A stretch of 64,000 nucleotides of DNA from Thermasporomyces composti. GTDB taxonomy: Bacteria; Actinomycetota; Actinomycetes; Propionibacteriales; Actinopolymorphaceae. Location of the stretch: contig NZ_QTUC01000001.1 in NCBI RefSeq assembly GCF_003386795.1, forward strand, positions 248,001 to 312,000. Direction: 5' to 3'. Shown piece after piece: positions 5,348-43,811 of the stretch (position 1 is the first letter of the stretch; every line of letters starts with the position of its first letter). A model generated the notes under the pieces. That model saw nothing but the letters and a program-made list of their open reading frames with translations. It searched no databases and was not told the origin of the DNA. Position numbers and translations under genes: made by a program.

Positions 5348-8300
5348 ATGGCTCGCACCGCGCGGATCGTGTCCGGCCCCGCCGCCCTTCTCCTCAGCGT
5401 CGGGCTGCTCAGCGCGCCCGAACCGGCGGCGGCCGCGCCCGTCACCTCCCCCGCGGACGCCCCTGGCAGCGCGGTGACCGTCCAGGTCGACCCGTCGTAC
5501 CGCCACCCGGTGTTCGAGGGATGGGGCACCAGCCTGGTCTGGTTCGCCAACATCACCGGCGGCTATCCCGACGAGATCCGGCGCAAGCTCGTCGACATGG
5601 TGTTCGGTGAGGACGGCCTCTGGCTGACCATCGCCCGCTACAACATCGGTGGCGGCAACGCGCCCGACGTCCGTCGCGACTACATGAAGGTCGGCGCGAC
5701 CATGGAGGGCTTCTGGAAGGCCCCCGAAGGGATCACCCACGAGGACATGGACTGGTGGGACCCCGACAACCCCGAGCACTGGAACTGGGACGCCGACGCC
5801 AACCAGCGCTGGTGGGTCGACCAGATCAAGGACAAGGTGACCCACTGGGAGGCGTTCAGCAACTCCCCACCGTGGTTCCAGACGGTCAGCGGGTACGTGT
5901 CCGGCGGCTTCGACCCCAACGCCGACCAGATCCGCGAGGACCGTGTCGACGACTTCGCGACGTACCTGGTCCGCGTGGTCGAGCACCTGGAGGACGCCCA
6001 CGGAATCGAGTTCGACACCGTCGAGCCGCTCAACGAGCCGAACACGCCGTACTGGAGCACGCAATTGGGCCCCGACGGACAACCCACGGGCGGCCGTCAG
6101 GAAGGCGCCCACGCGGGACCTGAGCTGCAGCAGAAGGTCATCCTCGCGCTCCGACGCGCGCTCGATGACGCCACGACCGACGCCGTGGTCTCGGCGATGG
6201 ACGAGACGAACCCGTCCACCTTCGTGCGCAACTGGAACGCCTACACCGACCAGGCCCGCGCCGCCGTCGACCAGCTCAACGTGCACACCTACGGCACCGG
6301 TGGCCGGACGAGCGTGCGTGACATCGCCAAGGCCGCCAACAAGAAGCTGTGGATGAGCGAGGTGGAGGGGAGCTACTACTCCCCGACCGACTACACGAGC
6401 ATGGAGCCCGGCCTCGGGATCGCCGCCCAGATCGTGGGCGATCTCCGTGAGCTGGAGCCGTCGGCCTGGGTGTTCTGGCAGCCGATCGAGGACGCGATCC
6501 CGCAGCAGGAGAGCAACAACAACTGGGGCAGCATCCACATCCCCTTCACCTGCACGGCCGAGGACACCCTCGAGACCTGTCCGATCCGCACGAACACCAA
6601 GTTCCACACCATCCGCAACTTCACCCACTACATCCGGCCGGGCGACCAGGTGGTGAGAGTCGACGACCCCTCCAGCGTCGCGGCGATCCGGCCGGCGGCG
6701 AAGCACGTCACGGTCGTGCACGTCAACAGGGCCACGACGAGCCGCGCGGTCACCCTCGACCTGTCGCTGTTCGCCCAGGTCGCGCCGGGCGCCACCGTGA
6801 CGCCGATCGTCACGAGCGCTGCCGGCCCGCTGGTCGAGGGCGATCCGGTGCCGGTCCGCGAACGCTCCGCCACTCTCGTGGTGCCGGCGAAGTCCGTCAC
6901 CACGTTCGTGGTGGACGGGGTGGCCGGGGTCGCCAAGGATGCCGCGCTGGTCCAGCCCGGCCACCCGTATCGACTGCGGGGTGTCCAGAGCGGCCGCTCG
7001 CTCGCGCCCTCCGACGATGGGCGCGGCGTGGTGATCCGCACCGACGACCCGACCGACACCGCCCAGCTGTGGTGGATCCGCAAGCTCACCAACGGCTACA
7101 GCAACCGCGAGCGCTACGCCCTCGTCAACGTCGCGCAGGGCACCCGCCTGGCGGTCCGAAACGGCGCCGCCGTGCTGGAGAAGGCGGTGGGCACGCCCGA
7201 CCCGGCCGGGCAGTGGATCTTGTCGACCACCGGTGACGGAACCTGGACGTTCGTCAACGTCGCGAGCGGGCTGCTGCTGGACGTCAGCGGTGAGGCCACC
7301 GCCGACGGCTCGCCCGTCTCGGTGTGGACGCCCACCTCGGGCGCCAACCAGCGCTTCGCCGTCGTGGACGAGCACGTCCTCGGCACCGAGCCCGTCGAGG
7401 TCTTCACGGTGCCCGGCCGGCCACCCGTCCTGCCCGACCACGTGACCCCGGTCTACCGCGACGGTGCCCGGGGCGAGCTGCCGGTGCGGTGGGCGCTGCC
7501 GCCCGACGGTCGATGGAACCGGCCCGGCACCGTCCGCGTGCGAGGCACCGCGACCGACCCGCTCGGACGCCTGGTTCGAGCCGAGGCCGTCGTCACCGTG
7601 GACACGATCGTCGCCACCCTGCCCGGCCGGGCCAAGGCCTACGTCGGCGGACGGCCCCAGCTACCCGCCACCGTCGTGGGCGTCGGCGCGCATGGCGGGC
7701 GGCCGGACCTGCCCGTGACGTGGGAGGAGGTCCCCGACGAGGCGTTCGAGCGTCCCGGTGTGGTGACGGTGCCCGGCGTGGCGCGGATCGTCGACGGAAG
7801 CACGGTGCCGGCCACGGCGCGGGTCCAGGTGACCGAGCCGGTCGAGACGAACACCGCGCTCGAGGACGGCGTCGAGGTGGGCGCGACGTTCACCGAGAGC
7901 GGCTACTCACCGGCCGGGTTGCGCAACGGCGACCGCACGGACAAGGCCTGGTCGAACTGGAAACCGTCCGACAAGAACCCCTCCGACACGATCACGTTCA
8001 CCTTGCCCGCGCGACGCGACCTCACCCGCGTGGTGACGTACTTCTACCGGGACGGCACCAACATCAGCTTCCCCGCGAGCCTTCGGGTGCAGGTGCGCGA
8101 CGCCGAGGGCCAGTGGGTCGACGTGAGCGACGAGATCGCGGTGGATCCGGACGCTCAGCCAGCGCCGGTGACGGACGTGCCGGTGTTGGCGGCGACCGAC
8201 GCGGTGCGCGTGGTGATGACGGCTCGGCCGGCCGGTTACATGACCGTGAGTGAGATCGAGCTCTACGCCAAGGCGCCCGGTGTCTCCTCCGACGCCCGGG

Positions 8301-25086: not shown

Positions 25087-26133
25087 TCAGAGTTCGGCCA
25101 GCTGGTCGACCCTGGCCCGCAAGCGCTCCGACGCCCGCTTCCGACGTCGCCGACGCCGGAACAACCGCAGGTTCTCCCGGGCTAGGTCAGCCGCGCCCAC
25201 CAGACCCGCCTCGTTGCCCAAGGCGGCCCGCAGGATCCGGGCCTCGGGCCGGAAGCCGCGCCCGGTCAAGGTGCGTCGGAACGCCTCCCGCGCCGGCTTC
25301 AGCAGCAGCTCACCCGCGTCGGAGACACCGCCGCCCACGACGAAGGTGCCCGGGTCCAACGCGGCCGCGATGTTGGCCAGGCCGACGCCGAGCCAACGAC
25401 CGACCTCCTCCAGCAGCTCGACCGCGAGGCGGTCGCCGTCCTTGGCGGCCTCGGTGACGGCGGGGCCGGTGATCCGCCCGGGATCACCGCCGACCCGGTC
25501 GAGGAGGTTCTGGGCCACGGGCGACCCGGACGCTGCCAGCTCACGCGCCTCCCGCACCAGCGCGTTCCCACTGGCGTACTGCTCCCAACAGCCGCGGTTG
25601 CCGCACTCGCAGCGGTGGCCGCCGGGCACGATCGTCATGTGCCCGAACTCCCCCGCCACGCCGTACTTCCCCCGCAGCATGACGCCGTCGATGATGACGG
25701 CACCGCCGATGCCCGTGCCGAGGGTCACACAGACCAGGTGGTCCTCGCCCTGACCGGCGCCGAACCGCCACTCCGCCCACGCGGCGGCGTTCGCGTCGTT
25801 CTCGATGACGACCGGCAGCCGAACCCGGCGGCGGACCGCGTCCCGTAGCGGCTCGTGCCGCCACGCCAAGTGCGGGGAGAACAAGACGGAGGTGCCCGTC
25901 ACGTCGATCCAGCCGGCGGCTCCGATGCCGACCGCGGTCACCTCGTGGCGGCTGCGGAGCTCGGCGACGACATCCGCGATGGTGTCCTCGGTCGCCTGCG
26001 GGCTCGTCGACGGAGTGTCCCGCCGCAGCCGCTCGAGCACATTGCCGTCCGGGTCGACGACGCCCGCGGCGACCTTCGTCCCGCCGATGTCGACGCCGAT
26101 CGTGAGCGCCTGGATGAACGCCATCACCGCCAC
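25087..26133 (-). CDS. ROK-family sugar kinase (glucokinase-like), copy 2
   Basis: A 348-residue ROK kinase that phosphorylates a hexose with ATP. Visible motifs are the phosphate-binding GVDIGGTKVAAG, the catalytic ENDANAAAWAE (base Asp), GTGIGGAVI, and the zinc-binding CECGNRGCWEQYASG. A basic Arg/Lys-rich patch (FRRRRRRKRASERL) extends the C-terminus beyond the usual ROK end. Its start overlaps the upstream paralogue by ten bases, so the two are a tandem duplicate in one operon. Either could be the glucose kinase; substrates may differ. Confidence 0.9.
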   Translation of the reverse strand: MAVMAFIQALTIGVDIGGTKVAAGVVDPDGNVLERLRRDTPSTSPQATEDTIADVVAELRSRHEVTAVGIGAAGWIDVTGTSVLFSPHLAWRHEPLRDAVRRRVRLPVVIENDANAAAWAEWRFGAGQGEDHLVCVTLGTGIGGAVIIDGVMLRGKYGVAGEFGHMTIVPGGHRCECGNRGCWEQYASGNALVREARELAASGSPVAQNLLDRVGGDPGRITGPAVTEAAKDGDRLAVELLEEVGRWLGVGLANIAAALDPGTFVVGGGVSDAGELLLKPAREAFRRTLTGRGFRPEARILRAALGNEAGLVGAADLARENLRLFRRRRRRKRASERLRARVDQLAEL

Positions 26134-27185
26134 CGTGCCAAGTCGGCCGCTCCGATGATGCCGGCCTCGTTACCAAAGGACGCTTGCTGGATGCGCAGCA
26201 CCGGCCGGTGACCGCGAGCGGTGAGGGTGCGCTCCAACGCCGCCCGCGCCGGCTCCAGCAGCAGGTCACCAGCCTCGGAGACGCCCCCGCCGATCACCAC
26301 GACCGCCGGATCGAGGAGCGCCGCGAGGGACGCGATGCCCTCGCCCAGCCAGCGACCGACCTCCTCCAGGAGCTCCTGGGCGGCCCGGTCGCCCTCCTTG
26401 GCGGCCTGCGTGACCATTCGTCCCTTCACGTTCGCGGGATCACCGCCGGCCAGCTCGAGGAGCCGGCTGGCCCGCGTCGGGCTCGACTGCGCCAACGCGC
26501 GCGCCTCACGTTCCAGCGCGGTGCCGCTGGCGTACTGCTCCCAGCAGCCCCGGTTGCCGCAGCCGCACGGGTACCCCCCGGGGACGACGCGCATGTGGCC
26601 GACCTCTCCGCCCACGCCGAACGCGCCACGGTAGAGCTCGCCACGCAGCACCAGCCCGCCTCCGAGCCCGGTGCCGACCGTGAGCAGCACCATGTCGGTG
26701 ACGTTCCGACCGCCACCGAACCGGAACTCCGCCCAGGCGGCGGCGTTCGCGTCGTTCTCGATGATCGTCGGCAGCCCGATGCGCTCCTCGACCACACGCT
26801 TGAGCGGCTCGTCCCGCCAGACGAGGTTGGGCGAGAAGAGCACGGTCGTCCGGTCGGCGTCGACCAGGCCCGCCGCACCGATCCCCACTGCACGCACGTC
26901 GTGTCTGGACCGCAGGTCCGCTACGACGTCGGCGATCGCCGCGGCGATCTCCTCCGGACTCGTCGCGGGCGTCTCCCGGCGTGCCTCGTCGAGGATGGCC
27001 CCCGACTCGTCCACCACGCCAGCGGCGATCTTGGTCCCTCCGACGTCGACCCCGATCGCCAGGGACGATCGGGTGGACCCGCTACCAGACCGCGCGCCTG
27101 GTCGCGCCCGCTCCTGTTCCACCTCGCCCGACTCAACCACGACGCCTACTTCCTCGTCCGCCTCGACGGCCTTCCTCCAAGCCAA
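26124..27185 (-). CDS. ROK-family sugar kinase (glucokinase-like), copy 1
   Basis: A 353-residue ROK kinase with GVDVGGTKIAAG, ENDANAAAWAE, GTGLGGGLV and the zinc motif CGCGNRGCWEQYASG. It is clearly paralogous to the downstream gene across its whole length. The N-terminal ~40 residues are acidic and Ser/Gly-rich with no conservation, so the true start may be an internal codon nearer the first motif. It follows the SRPBCC gene by 121 bases on the same strand; SRPBCC-ROK neighbourhoods recur in actinobacteria, where this kinase is the main glucokinase. Confidence 0.9.
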   Translation of the reverse strand: MAWRKAVEADEEVGVVVESGEVEQERARPGARSGSGSTRSSLAIGVDVGGTKIAAGVVDESGAILDEARRETPATSPEEIAAAIADVVADLRSRHDVRAVGIGAAGLVDADRTTVLFSPNLVWRDEPLKRVVEERIGLPTIIENDANAAAWAEFRFGGGRNVTDMVLLTVGTGLGGGLVLRGELYRGAFGVGGEVGHMRVVPGGYPCGCGNRGCWEQYASGTALEREARALAQSSPTRASRLLELAGGDPANVKGRMVTQAAKEGDRAAQELLEEVGRWLGEGIASLAALLDPAVVVIGGGVSEAGDLLLEPARAALERTLTARGHRPVLRIQQASFGNEAGIIGAADLARWR

Positions 27186-27921: not shown

Positions 27922-28905
27922 TCAGGCGTGGTGCGCGGCGTAGTGAGCAGCCAGCAGGTCCTCCCCCCAGTCGCGGCGCAGGTCACGCCACACCGTGTGG
28001 ACGTGATTGGCGCCGTTCTGGGTGTTGTCGTACTCCAGCAGGAAGGTCGGGCCCGTCACGGCGTAGTAGTGGCCCTCGCCGGGCGTCGTCGAGCCAGCCC
28101 AGCAGAACGCCACCTCCGTCAAACCCGCGTCGACGGCGTCGCGCCACGCGGTTTCGGCGGCCTCCGGGGCCACTCGACCCATGTAGTAGCGCACCAGCGT
28201 GGTCAGGAGTCGCCGCTGCGGCTCCGTCATGTCGGCGTACGTCAGACCTCGCGGAACGACGCTCGGATCGGCGACCGGGTCGCGACGGGTGAGGATGTCG
28301 TCCGGCGCCTCGGGCGAGACGATCGCGACGGTGCGGCGGTCGGGGTCCAACGCCTCGAGCAGCGCTCGGCCAAGGTCCTCGGCGTCCGGCAACGTGCGCA
28401 GGCCAGCGTGCGGTCCGCTCGGCACCCGTGCTGGATTCGCGCCGAAGAACTGCGGGGTCGCGGCGATCCGGTCGCCCACGACCGTCACGTGGGTGGCGAG
28501 GTGGTGACCATTGACGCGCCAGGCCCACGGCTGGTCGCCGCCGGGATCACCGAGGATACGCACCCAGTAGTAGTGAGGGTGGCGTTGTCGCCACATCGCC
28601 CGACCGGCCCCTCGCTCCAGCTCGCGCAGGACGGCCTCGAGAGCCATGACCGCGCGAGCCTCCCGCGAGCCATGCGCGCTCAAGCCCGTGTCGAGCAGCA
28701 CCATCGCCAGTTCGCGTTGCCGCTCGGTCATGTCGGCGAGCGCCAGACCGGGCCGCGGTCCGGGCAGGTAGGTCCACTCGCGGTGGTCGGGGGTGTCAAA
28801 GGGAGCGGTAGCCGCCCGCCGCTGGTCCGGATCCAACGACGCCAAGAACGCCACCGCGGCGGCCGCCATCCGACTCGCCCGCCCCGCCTGCTGCGACCCC
28901 TCCAT
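27922..28905 (-). CDS. DUF3500 family protein
   Basis: A 327-residue protein of the DUF3500 family. Typical elements are FLASLDPDQRRAATAPF near the start, MTERQRELAMVLLDTGLS, HYYWVRILGDPG, HHLATHVTVVGD, and the ending TFLLEYDNTQNGANHVHTVWRDLRRDWGEDLL. No signal peptide or membrane span is evident here, and the biochemical role of the family is not known to me. Conserved His, Asn and Asp residues in the last 60 residues look like a metal or active site. It is divergent from the udgX remnant. Confidence 0.87.
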   Translation of the reverse strand: MEGSQQAGRASRMAAAAVAFLASLDPDQRRAATAPFDTPDHREWTYLPGPRPGLALADMTERQRELAMVLLDTGLSAHGSREARAVMALEAVLRELERGAGRAMWRQRHPHYYWVRILGDPGGDQPWAWRVNGHHLATHVTVVGDRIAATPQFFGANPARVPSGPHAGLRTLPDAEDLGRALLEALDPDRRTVAIVSPEAPDDILTRRDPVADPSVVPRGLTYADMTEPQRRLLTTLVRYYMGRVAPEAAETAWRDAVDAGLTEVAFCWAGSTTPGEGHYYAVTGPTFLLEYDNTQNGANHVHTVWRDLRRDWGEDLLAAHYAAHHA

Positions 28906-29007
28906 GTGTCGACCTCCGCCACCACTCGACCGTCACGACCCACCATGAACCGGCAGATCACCACCGTGCAGAGCCCCGCCAGCCTAACCGCGCGTGGACG
29001 GAGTGAC

Positions 29008-29235
29008 GTGAGCTCCACGAGTCCGCCGTCCCGCATCGGCCGCCTGTTGTCGCGCCCGCGATGGGAGACGGCGGTGGCGTCACGGTCGTGTCAGGGCTGC
29101 GACCTGTACAAGGCGGCGACGCGGACCGTCTTCGGCGACGGGGACCCCGACGCCCGCGCCGTTGTGCCCGGCGAGCAACCAGGCGATCGGAGGACCGCCA
29201 GGGACAGCCGTTCGTCGGCCCCGCTGGCGGGCTTT
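29008..29235 (+). pseudogene. udgX-type uracil-DNA glycosylase, frameshifted and truncated
   Basis: The first ~76 codons of a family-4-like UdgX gene survive. From a GTG at 29008 the frame gives the iron-sulfur segment CQGCDLYKAATRTVFG and the uracil-site segment PGEQPGD (29167-29187). At about 29188 one base is missing; the next frame continues EDRQGQPFVGPAGG (29190-29231), exactly the expected remainder of motif A. Homology then stops, a few bases before the 3' end of the opposing MoaD-like gene. The rest of the ~200-residue enzyme, including the His-containing catalytic region, is absent from the window. The gene is dead by both frameshift and deletion. Confidence 0.85.
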
Positions 29236-29247
29236 CGTCGCGGCCGG

Positions 29248-29532
29248 TCACCCACCCGCGACCGAGGGGACGATGTGCACCTCGACGCCGTCGCGCAACG
29301 CGGTCCGCAGGCCGTCCTGGTGCCGTGACTCCGTGCCGTCGACGTAGACGTTGACGTAGCGCCGAAGCGCACCCTTCTCGTCGCGCAGCCGGCGTTCGAG
29401 CCGCGGGTAGTGAGCGGCGAGCTCGGCCATCAGCCCACCGAGAGTGGGATCCCCGGTGAGCTCGACCACCAGACGGGCGGCCCCACCGCAGTCGGCCCGG
29501 AGGACGGACGGCACGACGACGTGCACCCTCAT
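29248..29532 (-). CDS. MoaD/ThiS-family ubiquitin-like sulfur-carrier protein
   Basis: A 94-residue beta-grasp protein ending in Gly-Gly (VPSVAGG), the hallmark of sulfur carriers activated by E1-like enzymes. Other family features are the initial VVVPSVLR strand, LGGLMAELAAHYP helix, RRYVNVYVDG strand and LRDGVEVHIVPSVAGG end. Its ATG overlaps the stop of the beta-propeller gene by four bases, so the two are coupled. No MoaE, MoeB or ThiG gene is nearby, so a molybdopterin or thiamine role is not indicated; it may modify or serve the partner protein. Confidence 0.85.
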   Translation of the reverse strand: MRVHVVVPSVLRADCGGAARLVVELTGDPTLGGLMAELAAHYPRLERRLRDEKGALRRYVNVYVDGTESRHQDGLRTALRDGVEVHIVPSVAGG

Positions 29533-30617
29533 GCCACGACCGCCGCTCGGACACACAGCACATCTGGTAGGTGGGCGGCCACGAGCCGCCACGTCTCGCC
29601 CTCGTCGGCGCTGGCGTAGACCTCTCCGCTCCGGGCACCGAAGTAGACGCCAGCGGGCTCGGCGTCGTCACACGTCATGGCGTCGCGAAGCACGCTGGCG
29701 TAGAACCCATCGGTGGGCAGCCCTGCGCCCAACGGAATCCAGCTCCCGCCGGCGTCGTCACTGCGGAACACCCGACACCGATAGTCGGGTGGGAACCGGC
29801 GAGCGTCGGCGGCCAGCGGGAAGGTGTAGACGACGCCGGACTTGCGCGGGTGGGTGACGATCGGGAACCCGAAATCGCTGGGCAGTCCGTCGGCGATCGA
29901 CGACCAGGTGAGGCCGCCGTCGTCAGATCGGTCCACCCCATGGTGGTTCTGGAGAAAGAGCCGCTCCGGATGCACCGGGTCGCGCGCCACCTTGTGGACG
30001 CACTGCCCGAACTCCGGGTACTCGTTGTCAGGCAGGAAGTACGCCCGGATACCGGTGTTGCTCGCCTTCCAGCTCTTGCCCCCGTCGGTGGTGCGGTAGA
30101 CCCCACCGGATGACATCGCAACCAGAACTTGGTCCTGGTCATCGGGGTGCGGGAGCACGGTGTGGATCGCCTTGCCACCGTACCCGGGGTACCAGTGAGG
30201 GCGATGGGGATGGTCCCAGAGCCCGCGGACGAGCTCGAAGGAGCGACCACCGTCCTCGGACCGGAACAGCGCGGACGGCTCCACCCCTGCGTAGACGAGG
30301 TCGGGCTGCTCGGCCGGACCTGGCGCGATCTGCCACACCCGCTCCAGGGTGGCGTCGGTGTCGGCGGGGAACGCGATCGGCGCGACCTCCGACTCCTGCC
30401 ACGTCTCCCCGAGATCGTCGCTGATGGTGACGCTCGGACCGAAGTGCGAACTGGCGGCACCGACGAGGAGACGTGGCGGCTGTCGTCGAGTGTCGATGGC
30501 GACGGCGTAGACGGCGTTCATCGGCACGTGCGGGCCGCTGAGCTCCCAGCGTTCCCGGTCGTCGGATCGGGCGAGGAAGAGCCCCTTGGCTGTGCCGATC
30601 GCGAGGAGGACTGTCAT
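29529..30617 (-). CDS. BNR/sortilin-like beta-propeller protein
   Basis: A 362-residue beta-propeller built from repeated BNR-type Asp-box blades: SDDLGETW, SEDGGRSF, TTDGGKSW, SDDGGLTW, SDDAGGSW and SADEGETW are all visible, about one per 55 residues. It starts MTVLLAIGTAKGLFLARSDD without a signal peptide, so it is cytoplasmic. Annotation pipelines call such proteins exo-alpha-sialidase or glycosyl hydrolase, but the sialidase Arg triad is not apparent. The start has GGGAGC upstream. It is coupled to the MoaD-like gene; function unknown. Confidence 0.82.
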   Translation of the reverse strand: MTVLLAIGTAKGLFLARSDDRERWELSGPHVPMNAVYAVAIDTRRQPPRLLVGAASSHFGPSVTISDDLGETWQESEVAPIAFPADTDATLERVWQIAPGPAEQPDLVYAGVEPSALFRSEDGGRSFELVRGLWDHPHRPHWYPGYGGKAIHTVLPHPDDQDQVLVAMSSGGVYRTTDGGKSWKASNTGIRAYFLPDNEYPEFGQCVHKVARDPVHPERLFLQNHHGVDRSDDGGLTWSSIADGLPSDFGFPIVTHPRKSGVVYTFPLAADARRFPPDYRCRVFRSDDAGGSWIPLGAGLPTDGFYASVLRDAMTCDDAEPAGVYFGARSGEVYASADEGETWRLVAAHLPDVLCVRAAVVA

Positions 30618-41933: not shown

Positions 41934-42017
41934 CCAGCCGACCGCGACCCGCGTCGGCGTCCGAGCACGAGCGCGTCCTGCGTCGCGGTGTCGGTGGACA
42001 CTCGTAACGTCCCGCCC

Positions 42018-43811
42018 ATGACCGTCGAGGCGACGTTCGCGTCCCCACGTAGCGGCGGCCCACCCGTCGGTGTTCAGACCAGCTTCGACGAGCTCGGCAC
42101 CCCGCTGCGCGAGGTCACCTTCTGTGTGGTCGACCTCGAGACCACCGGCGGCAACCCCGACAGCGCGGGTATCACCGAGATCGGAGCGGTCAAGGTCCGA
42201 GGAGGCGAGGTCCTCGGCGAGTTCCAGACGCTCGTCAACCCGGGCGCCGCGATCCCGCCGTTCATCGCGGTCCTCACCGGCATCACCGACGCGATGGTCG
42301 CGAGCGCACCCACGGTGAACGAGGTCCTTCCCACGTTCTTGGAGTTCGCGCGTGGGTGTGTGCTCGTGGCCCACAATGCTCCCTTCGACGTGGGTTTCCT
42401 GCGCGCCGCCGCCGACGCCGCCGGCTACCGTTGGCCGTCGTTCAACGTCATCGACACCGCCCGACTCGCCCGCCGGGTGCTCACCAGGGACGACGCCCCC
42501 AACTGCAAGCTCGCCACGCTCGCCGCCTACTTCAAGTCGCCGACCACCCCGACACACCGAGCCCTCGCCGACGCACGCGCGACCGTCGACGTGCTCCACG
42601 GCCTGCTGGAGCGCCTCGGATCACTCGGCGTCCACACGTTGGAGGAGCTGTCGACGTTCAGCTCCCGGGTCTCCCCCGCCCAGCGTCGCAAGCGCCACCT
42701 GGCCGACAAGCTCCCCCACGCACCCGGCATCTACCTGTTCACCGACGACCGCGGACGGGTCCTCTACGTCGGGAAGTCCAAGGACCTGCGCACGCGAGTG
42801 CGGAGCTACTTCACCGCGTCCGAGACCAGGTCCCGGATGGGCGAGATGCTCAACCTCGCCGCCGACGTCATCGGTATCGAGTGCGCCACGCCCCTCGAAG
42901 CCGAGGTTCGGGAGCTGCGGCTCATCGCGGCGCACAAGCCTCGTTACAACCGGCGATCTCGTTTTCCTGAGCGGGCGAGCTGGCTGAAGGTCACCGTCGA
43001 GCCCTTTCCTCGACTGTCCCTCGTTCGCGACGTGAAAGCCGACGGGGCCACCTACTTGGGTCCCTTCGGCTCCCGCCGAGTCGCCGAGCAAGCGATCGCA
43101 GCCCTCCACGAGGCGTTCCCTATTCGCCAATGCACCCAACGGCTGTCCCGCTCTCCAGGACGTGGTTCCGCGTGCGTCCTCGCGGAGATGGGCCGGTGCG
43201 TCGCGCCGTGTGTCGGCACCGTCGATGTCGCGGCGTACGCCGTGCATGTCGAGGCGGTGCGCCGCGCCATCACCACCGATCCCAGCCCTGTCATCGAGGC
43301 GATCACCCGTCGGATCCGGGTCTTGGCGGAGCAACAGCGCTACGAGGAGGCCATCGTGCACCGCGACCGGATGGCGGCCTTCGTGCGTTCGGCCGCGCGC
43401 ACACAACGGCTGGCCGCTCTCGCTCGCTGTCCGGAGGTGGTGGCCGCACGACGTCTGCCCGACGGGGGATGGGAGGCGCACGTCATTCGGTACGGCCGGC
43501 TCGCCGGCGCCGGCGTGGTGCCTCCCGGGTCACCGGCACGCGCCGGCATCGCGGTCATCACCGCTTCCGCGGAGACCGTCGAACCGCCACCACCCCCTCG
43601 ACCGGCCGCCACGGCTGAGGAAACCGAACGGATCCTCGCCTGGTTGGAGCAACCCGGCGTCCGTCTTGTGGAGCTGTCCGGCGAGTGGAGCTGTCCGGTC
43701 GCCGGAGCGGAGAGCCGGATCGCGTGGCTGGACACCGCCTACGACTGGCGTGAGGGGCACGTGGACGACTCGCGGGGACTGCGTCCCGGCCAGTCGCCGC
43801 TCCGCCCGTGA
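42018..43811 (+). CDS. DEDD exonuclease fused to UvrC-like GIY-YIG nuclease
   Basis: A 597-residue DNA repair protein with two nuclease modules. Residues about 30-195 form a DnaQ-like DEDD exonuclease: VVDLETTGG, VAHNAPFDVGFL and HRALADARATVD give the four acidic residues and His. Residues about 235-320 are a GIY-YIG domain (PGIYLFTDDRGRVLYVGKS, then RVRSYF). A Cys-containing stretch (GSACVLAEMGRCVAPC) and a UVR-like helix pair (EQQRYEEAIVHRDRMAAFV) follow as in UvrC, but the C-terminal RNase H-like nuclease of UvrC is absent, so the GIY-YIG half resembles Cho. The ATG at 42018 follows TAACGT by eight bases (possible leaderless start). Confidence 0.92.
   Translation: MTVEATFASPRSGGPPVGVQTSFDELGTPLREVTFCVVDLETTGGNPDSAGITEIGAVKVRGGEVLGEFQTLVNPGAAIPPFIAVLTGITDAMVASAPTVNEVLPTFLEFARGCVLVAHNAPFDVGFLRAAADAAGYRWPSFNVIDTARLARRVLTRDDAPNCKLATLAAYFKSPTTPTHRALADARATVDVLHGLLERLGSLGVHTLEELSTFSSRVSPAQRRKRHLADKLPHAPGIYLFTDDRGRVLYVGKSKDLRTRVRSYFTASETRSRMGEMLNLAADVIGIECATPLEAEVRELRLIAAHKPRYNRRSRFPERASWLKVTVEPFPRLSLVRDVKADGATYLGPFGSRRVAEQAIAALHEAFPIRQCTQRLSRSPGRGSACVLAEMGRCVAPCVGTVDVAAYAVHVEAVRRAITTDPSPVIEAITRRIRVLAEQQRYEEAIVHRDRMAAFVRSAARTQRLAALARCPEVVAARRLPDGGWEAHVIRYGRLAGAGVVPPGSPARAGIAVITASAETVEPPPPPRPAATAEETERILAWLEQPGVRLVELSGEWSCPVAGAESRIAWLDTAYDWREGHVDDSRGLRPGQSPLRP

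Follow-up and report, generated by a model that had tools for sequence, protein, structure and literature searches.

The window (the whole stretch of 64,000 nucleotides analysed here, from whose first letter all positions are counted) carries, between a DUF3500 gene and a MoaD-like gene, what is almost certainly a pseudogene, left over from a udgX gene that was inherited with the chromosome and is now reduced to a stump. The stretch is homologous to UdgX, is syntenic with an intact gene in a relative, carries three lesions and has no other copy in the genome; we infer that it is without function. The case is an ordinary, well documented gene loss.

Identification of the remnant

Traces of udgX coding sequence cover ~150 bases (roughly 29077-29228) and comprise a CxxC segment, motif A and a PFVGPAG segment, in two frames. 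The first part (29077..29187, + strand) runs from ASRSCQGCDLY to GEQPGD, contains the CxxC pair and motif A, and matches the UdgX model TIGR03914 with E=1e-10; here SCQGCDLYKAATRTVFGDGDPDARAVVPGEQPGD is the translation in + strand frame 1, with CQGCDLY from 29089, GEQPG at 29170-29184 and GEQPGD at 29170-29187. The reading continues in another frame as EDRQGQPFVGPAG (29190..29228, + strand), which matches TIGR03914 with E=0.0026 and the UdgX of Actinopolymorpha alba at 92% over 13 residues (tblastn). In hmmscan, TIGR03914 scored 41.6 bits versus 29.8 for the family 4 model and 25.7 for the archaeal type 4 model, and Pfam models gave no match to either remnant frame. The score lies below the cut-off for full-length UdgX (189.95), as expected because only a stump is left. 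When the A. alba protein was compared with positions 28906-29247 by tblastn, it scored 69.3 bits against at most 26.9 bits in 1000 dinucleotide shuffles, a similarity far beyond chance. Thus, the family models and tblastn both name UdgX, as the preliminary description had done in calling the stretch a decayed UdgX remnant.

The readable part is well preserved: the same residue as in A. alba UdgX is encoded by 38 of 46 codons (83%) between 29089 and 29228, and 21 of the 25 near-invariant columns in the aligned stretch are kept, with the four losses at its two ends. Motif A has the Q of GEQPG that defines it in UdgX (PMC10359453), where family 4 has A or G. The remainder of the protein is missing. 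A single open frame across the whole UdgX domain (about 200-230 residues) is absent, and two frames with about 46 codons stand in its place; the regions of the R-loop KRRIH, with its nucleophilic histidine, and of motif B, HPS(S/A)(L/V)(L/V)R, are deleted.

The preliminary description had the remnant begin at 29008, which is too early: positions 29008 to about 29070 are without recognisable udgX coding sequence, and such a start takes in intergenic DNA, because a conserved block within it (29028-29042, discussed below) goes with the DUF3500 side.

Intact udgX in family relatives

The host genome is a single contig of 4,372,514 bases (97.6% complete) and the only representative of its genus (G000) in our genome collection. 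The nearest named relative found was A. alba (Actinopolymorphaceae, Propionibacteriales), where an intact udgX for about 225 residues is located at about 6409-7086 on the minus strand of locus L025 (record NZ_KB892707.1). The order in A. alba is BNR-repeat protein gene, MoaD-like gene, udgX on the opposite strand and DUF3500 gene, the same as in the window except that udgX is whole. In total, six of the seven family relatives have a udgX that passes the cut-off, and in all six DUF3500 is adjacent, so that the suggested check in sister species came out in favour of the preliminary description; in five of them (G001, G002, G003, G006 and G007) the intact udgX adjoins DUF3500 divergently, and no BNR or MoaD-like matches were seen near udgX in the stretches read. 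The seventh relative, G004, has DUF3500 and no trace of udgX (5.3 kb read; tblastn E up to 1).

A search for a second udgX, also proposed beforehand, found none anywhere in the one-contig host genome down to E 10, the remnant being the only match. Likewise, no match to the lost 3' part, the R-loop or motif B was found elsewhere in this genome (E up to 10). A split gene or a relocated 3' half was considered as well and rejected, as the single match at E up to 10 was the stump itself. With an intact syntenic orthologue, disabling lesions here and no other copy, the stretch has the properties of a unitary pseudogene.

Three lesions in the remnant

Pairwise alignment with A. alba revealed three lesions: a 5' deletion, a one-base loss and a 3' deletion. 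The junction of the 5' deletion lies within 29043..29076, as located by coordinates and an alignment of eight upstream regions. The conserved block and the first cysteine codon lie 46 bases apart in the window and 183 in A. alba. The ~137 bases missing here took with them the start codon and the greater part of the 28 codons for the N-terminus. The one-base frame break is located directly after motif A, at 29188..29189 (+ strand), with the switch of frame falling after 29187 and before 29190. In each of the 22 intact UdgX rows, a single residue separates the D of GEQPGD/GETPGD from the next ED. The junction of the 3' deletion lies within 29229..29247, as placed by pairwise alignment and coordinates: GPAG is 19 bases away from the MoaD-like stop codon in the window and about 466 bases away in A. 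alba, which corresponds to ~447 bases lost. The preliminary description had reported CxxC and UdgX segments in two frames, with motif A in two halves, and a one-base loss at about 29188. The segments, the two frames and the position of the frame change stand; motif A, however, is unsplit and whole in one frame, and the lesions number three, not one.

In the host lineage, udgX was broken by a 5' deletion, by a one-base loss after motif A and by a deletion that removed the distal two thirds of the gene as far as the 3' end of the converging MoaD-like gene. Both deletions would be bounded by neighbours still in use, namely the upstream region of DUF3500 and the MoaD-like gene. A sequencing or assembly error within an intact udgX is extremely improbable as an explanation of the whole stretch. 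Taken alone, the frame break, which concerns one base in G+C-rich DNA, might be such an error. The deletions hardly could be: the readable part lacks ~137 bases on one side and ~447 on the other, the lost sequence was not found anywhere else in the genome, and both flanks carry whole genes in the A. alba order.

UdgX excises uracil and then stays covalently bound through the R-loop histidine. Because this histidine and motif B are lost, no product of the remnant would be able to work as UdgX, and covalent binding to uracil-DNA is not expected from a sequence that lacks the R-loop. Residues that matter by mutation are in the parts lost here: N91, K94 and H178 (PMC10776899), and H109 and R184 (PMC10359453). 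UdgX is reported to be a 4Fe-4S protein (PMC10359453), and the CxxC pair is all that the remnant has of the possible cluster ligands. These facts also bear on whether a short peptide with a function of its own, such as an iron-sulfur or DNA-binding mini-protein, is now made from the stretch. The retained near-invariant CxxC and motif A residues speak for such reuse, but the two parts share no frame, the start codon region is deleted, the cluster ligands are reduced to the one pair, a proline without precedent stands directly before motif A (absent from 22 of 22 intact copies), and no second genome has a short form. Reuse of this kind is therefore scarcely credible.

Flanking genes and the conserved intergenic block

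The DUF3500 gene (27922..28905, - strand; PF12006, E=1.4e-86) is the divergent neighbour of udgX, and its product shares 64-71% identity with those of the seven family relatives. On the other side, the MoaD/ThiS-like (SAMP1-like) gene (29248..29592, - strand; NF041918, 60.4 bits; PF02597), whose product has a C-terminal GG, lies tail to tail with the remnant, its stop codon at 29248-29250 on the other strand; the true start codon may lie inside this interval. The BNR-repeat protein gene (29529..30617, - strand) is a syntenic anchor with 77% identity to A. alba. The arrangement at 29248-30617, a MoaD-like/SAMP1-like protein with a terminal GG after a BNR-repeat protein, can be noted in its own right, as can a match to this MoaD-like protein in 28 of the 70 loci examined, from many actinomycetes. 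Beyond DUF3500, two ROK-type kinase-like genes with similar sequences lie in tandem on the minus strand (25087-27185); judged by eye from the translations, they are probably a tandem duplication.

Genome searches and an upstream alignment identified a conserved block of 15 bases (29028..29042) between DUF3500 and udgX. It occurs once per genome and always at this locus in five of the eight genomes searched, and G004, which is without udgX, retains it with one mismatch; thus, the block belongs to the DUF3500 side. One could then suppose that the stretch is still readable mainly through overlap with upstream DNA that DUF3500 needs, and not because the loss is recent. The persistence of the block in G004 speaks for such a need. 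However, the readable part of udgX (29077-29228) lies outside the block, and G004 has the block yet no udgX trace, so we regard this explanation as unlikely and retain the inherited, decaying gene as the preferred one.

Age of the loss

The preliminary description held the loss to be recent. On the one hand, the remnant is as close to A. alba UdgX (83%) as A. alba UdgX is to the intact copies of G002, G003, G006 and G007 (79-83% over aligned codons; 53% for G001), and the differences from A. alba fall at codon positions 1, 2 and 3 in the numbers 4, 5 and 23, which argues that selection acted on the gene during most of the period after the split from A. alba. On the other hand, the novel proline and the two large deletions have already happened, and window-only changes are in excess at the first two codon positions: with G007 as the outgroup, 6 changes at positions 1 and 2 and 9 at position 3 are specific to the window, against 2 and 10 specific to A. 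alba (Fisher p=0.24 for 6:9 against 2:10). For the first two positions, other outgroups gave 6 versus 2 (G002 and G003) and 5 versus 3 (G006), and with G001 the excess was reversed (window 2, A. alba 6). A recent loss would fit these patterns but is only partly supported, 46 codons being too few for dating.

Loss of udgX across the order and the remaining uracil-DNA glycosylases

The distribution of UdgX is described as sporadic (PMC10776899), and its physiological role as largely unknown (PMC10359453). The UdgX cut-off was passed by 78 of the 293 genomes of the order. We detected broken udgX genes in at least six other genomes, at least four of them with parts missing and at least two with one frame break. 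Like the window, the former (G016, G027, G208 and G221) have recognisable UdgX pieces with parts missing; they lost different parts, thus the losses are not one shared event. The latter (L114 in G093 and L116 in G122) have all their parts, with a single frame break in each that could be sequencing error as well as early decay. The udgX genes of G040 and G006 were intact on inspection, and that of G068, which meets a contig end, was left out of the count of broken genes. GLAPA is the motif A of family 5 (PMC10359453), and two further candidates for remnants that scored below the cut-off (G194 and G257) were rejected as family-5-type genes with this motif.

The host genome retains intact Ung (family 1; NF003588, 398 bits), Mug (NF007570, 180.6 bits) and a third uracil-DNA glycosylase, which matches family-4 models weakly, carries GLAPA and is of the family-5 type; therefore, uracil repair need not depend on udgX here. 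A limited literature search combining UdgX with pseudogene gave a sole match, by its title an unrelated Francisella enzyme. The stump and the intact syntenic orthologue show that at least part of the patchiness of UdgX is loss of an inherited gene, and this loss is seen here in a cell that retains three other uracil-DNA glycosylases.

A putative damage-response box upstream of DUF3500

The consensus of LexA-independent damage promoters is given as tTGTCRgtg-8 nt-TannnT (PMC5656591). In all six genomes of the A. alba genus, a similar box (tTGTCRgtg-N8-TannnT) was found 64-71 bases upstream of the matched DUF3500 start, with 1, 1, 1, 2, 3 and 3 mismatches. At these loci (L018, L019, L020, L107, L110 and L025) the putative box of DUF3500 points away from udgX. 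No box within 3 mismatches was found upstream of DUF3500 in the window (28906-29050) or at the loci of G001, G008, G016 and G027; across seven loci (70,482 positions), 27 matches were counted at 3 mismatches.

Over whole genomes, 4 core boxes were counted in the host genome versus 38-71 in each of the seven family relatives (G001, 38; G002, 50; G003, 62; G004, 61; G005, 71; G006, 47; G007, 53), with 0-2 occurrences of reversed control boxes. Counts in other families of the order were 8 (G008), 21 (G012), 40 (G016) and 8 (G040). G005 and G007 each hold numerous copies of an identical box with an identical spacer, as though a repeat family had spread it. One of the four exact copies in the host genome (TGTCGGTG-N8-TAACGT, 41989-42010) directly precedes a DEDD-exonuclease/UvrC-like gene (about 42018-43811), a place where a damage-response promoter would be expected; it is likely such a promoter, of the PafBC type and near the start codon.

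The DUF3500 boxes in relatives, the genome-wide counts and the box of the UvrC-like gene together provide a lead: the loss of udgX could conceivably, though doubtfully, belong to a broader retreat from the RecA-independent response to DNA damage of the PafBC type. DUF3500 and udgX would then have formed a damage-related unit in which the former lost its box and the latter was broken. The repeat-like copies in the relatives, the low counts in G008 and G040 and the 27 matches at 3 mismatches call for caution with this reading. DUF3500 may be a member of a DNA-damage regulon, and its putative damage promoter is a clue to when the relatives might need the DUF3500-udgX pair.

Comparison with known UdgX proteins

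A close counterpart is the udgX of A. alba, whose neighbours match those of the remnant in kind, order and orientation and which is identical to it in 38 of the 46 readable residues; it differs in encoding a complete protein (about 225 residues), whereas the remnant has about 46 codons in two frames. The intact UdgX of G007 matches structures of M. smegmatis-type UdgX at E about 1e-70. With UdgX as defined by TIGR03914 and by solved structures such as PDB 6ail, 6ajo and 6iod, the remnant shares CxxCDLY, GEQPGD and ED..G.PFVGPAG, but it lacks the N-terminus, motif 3 (N91, K94), the R-loop H109, motif B and an unbroken frame.
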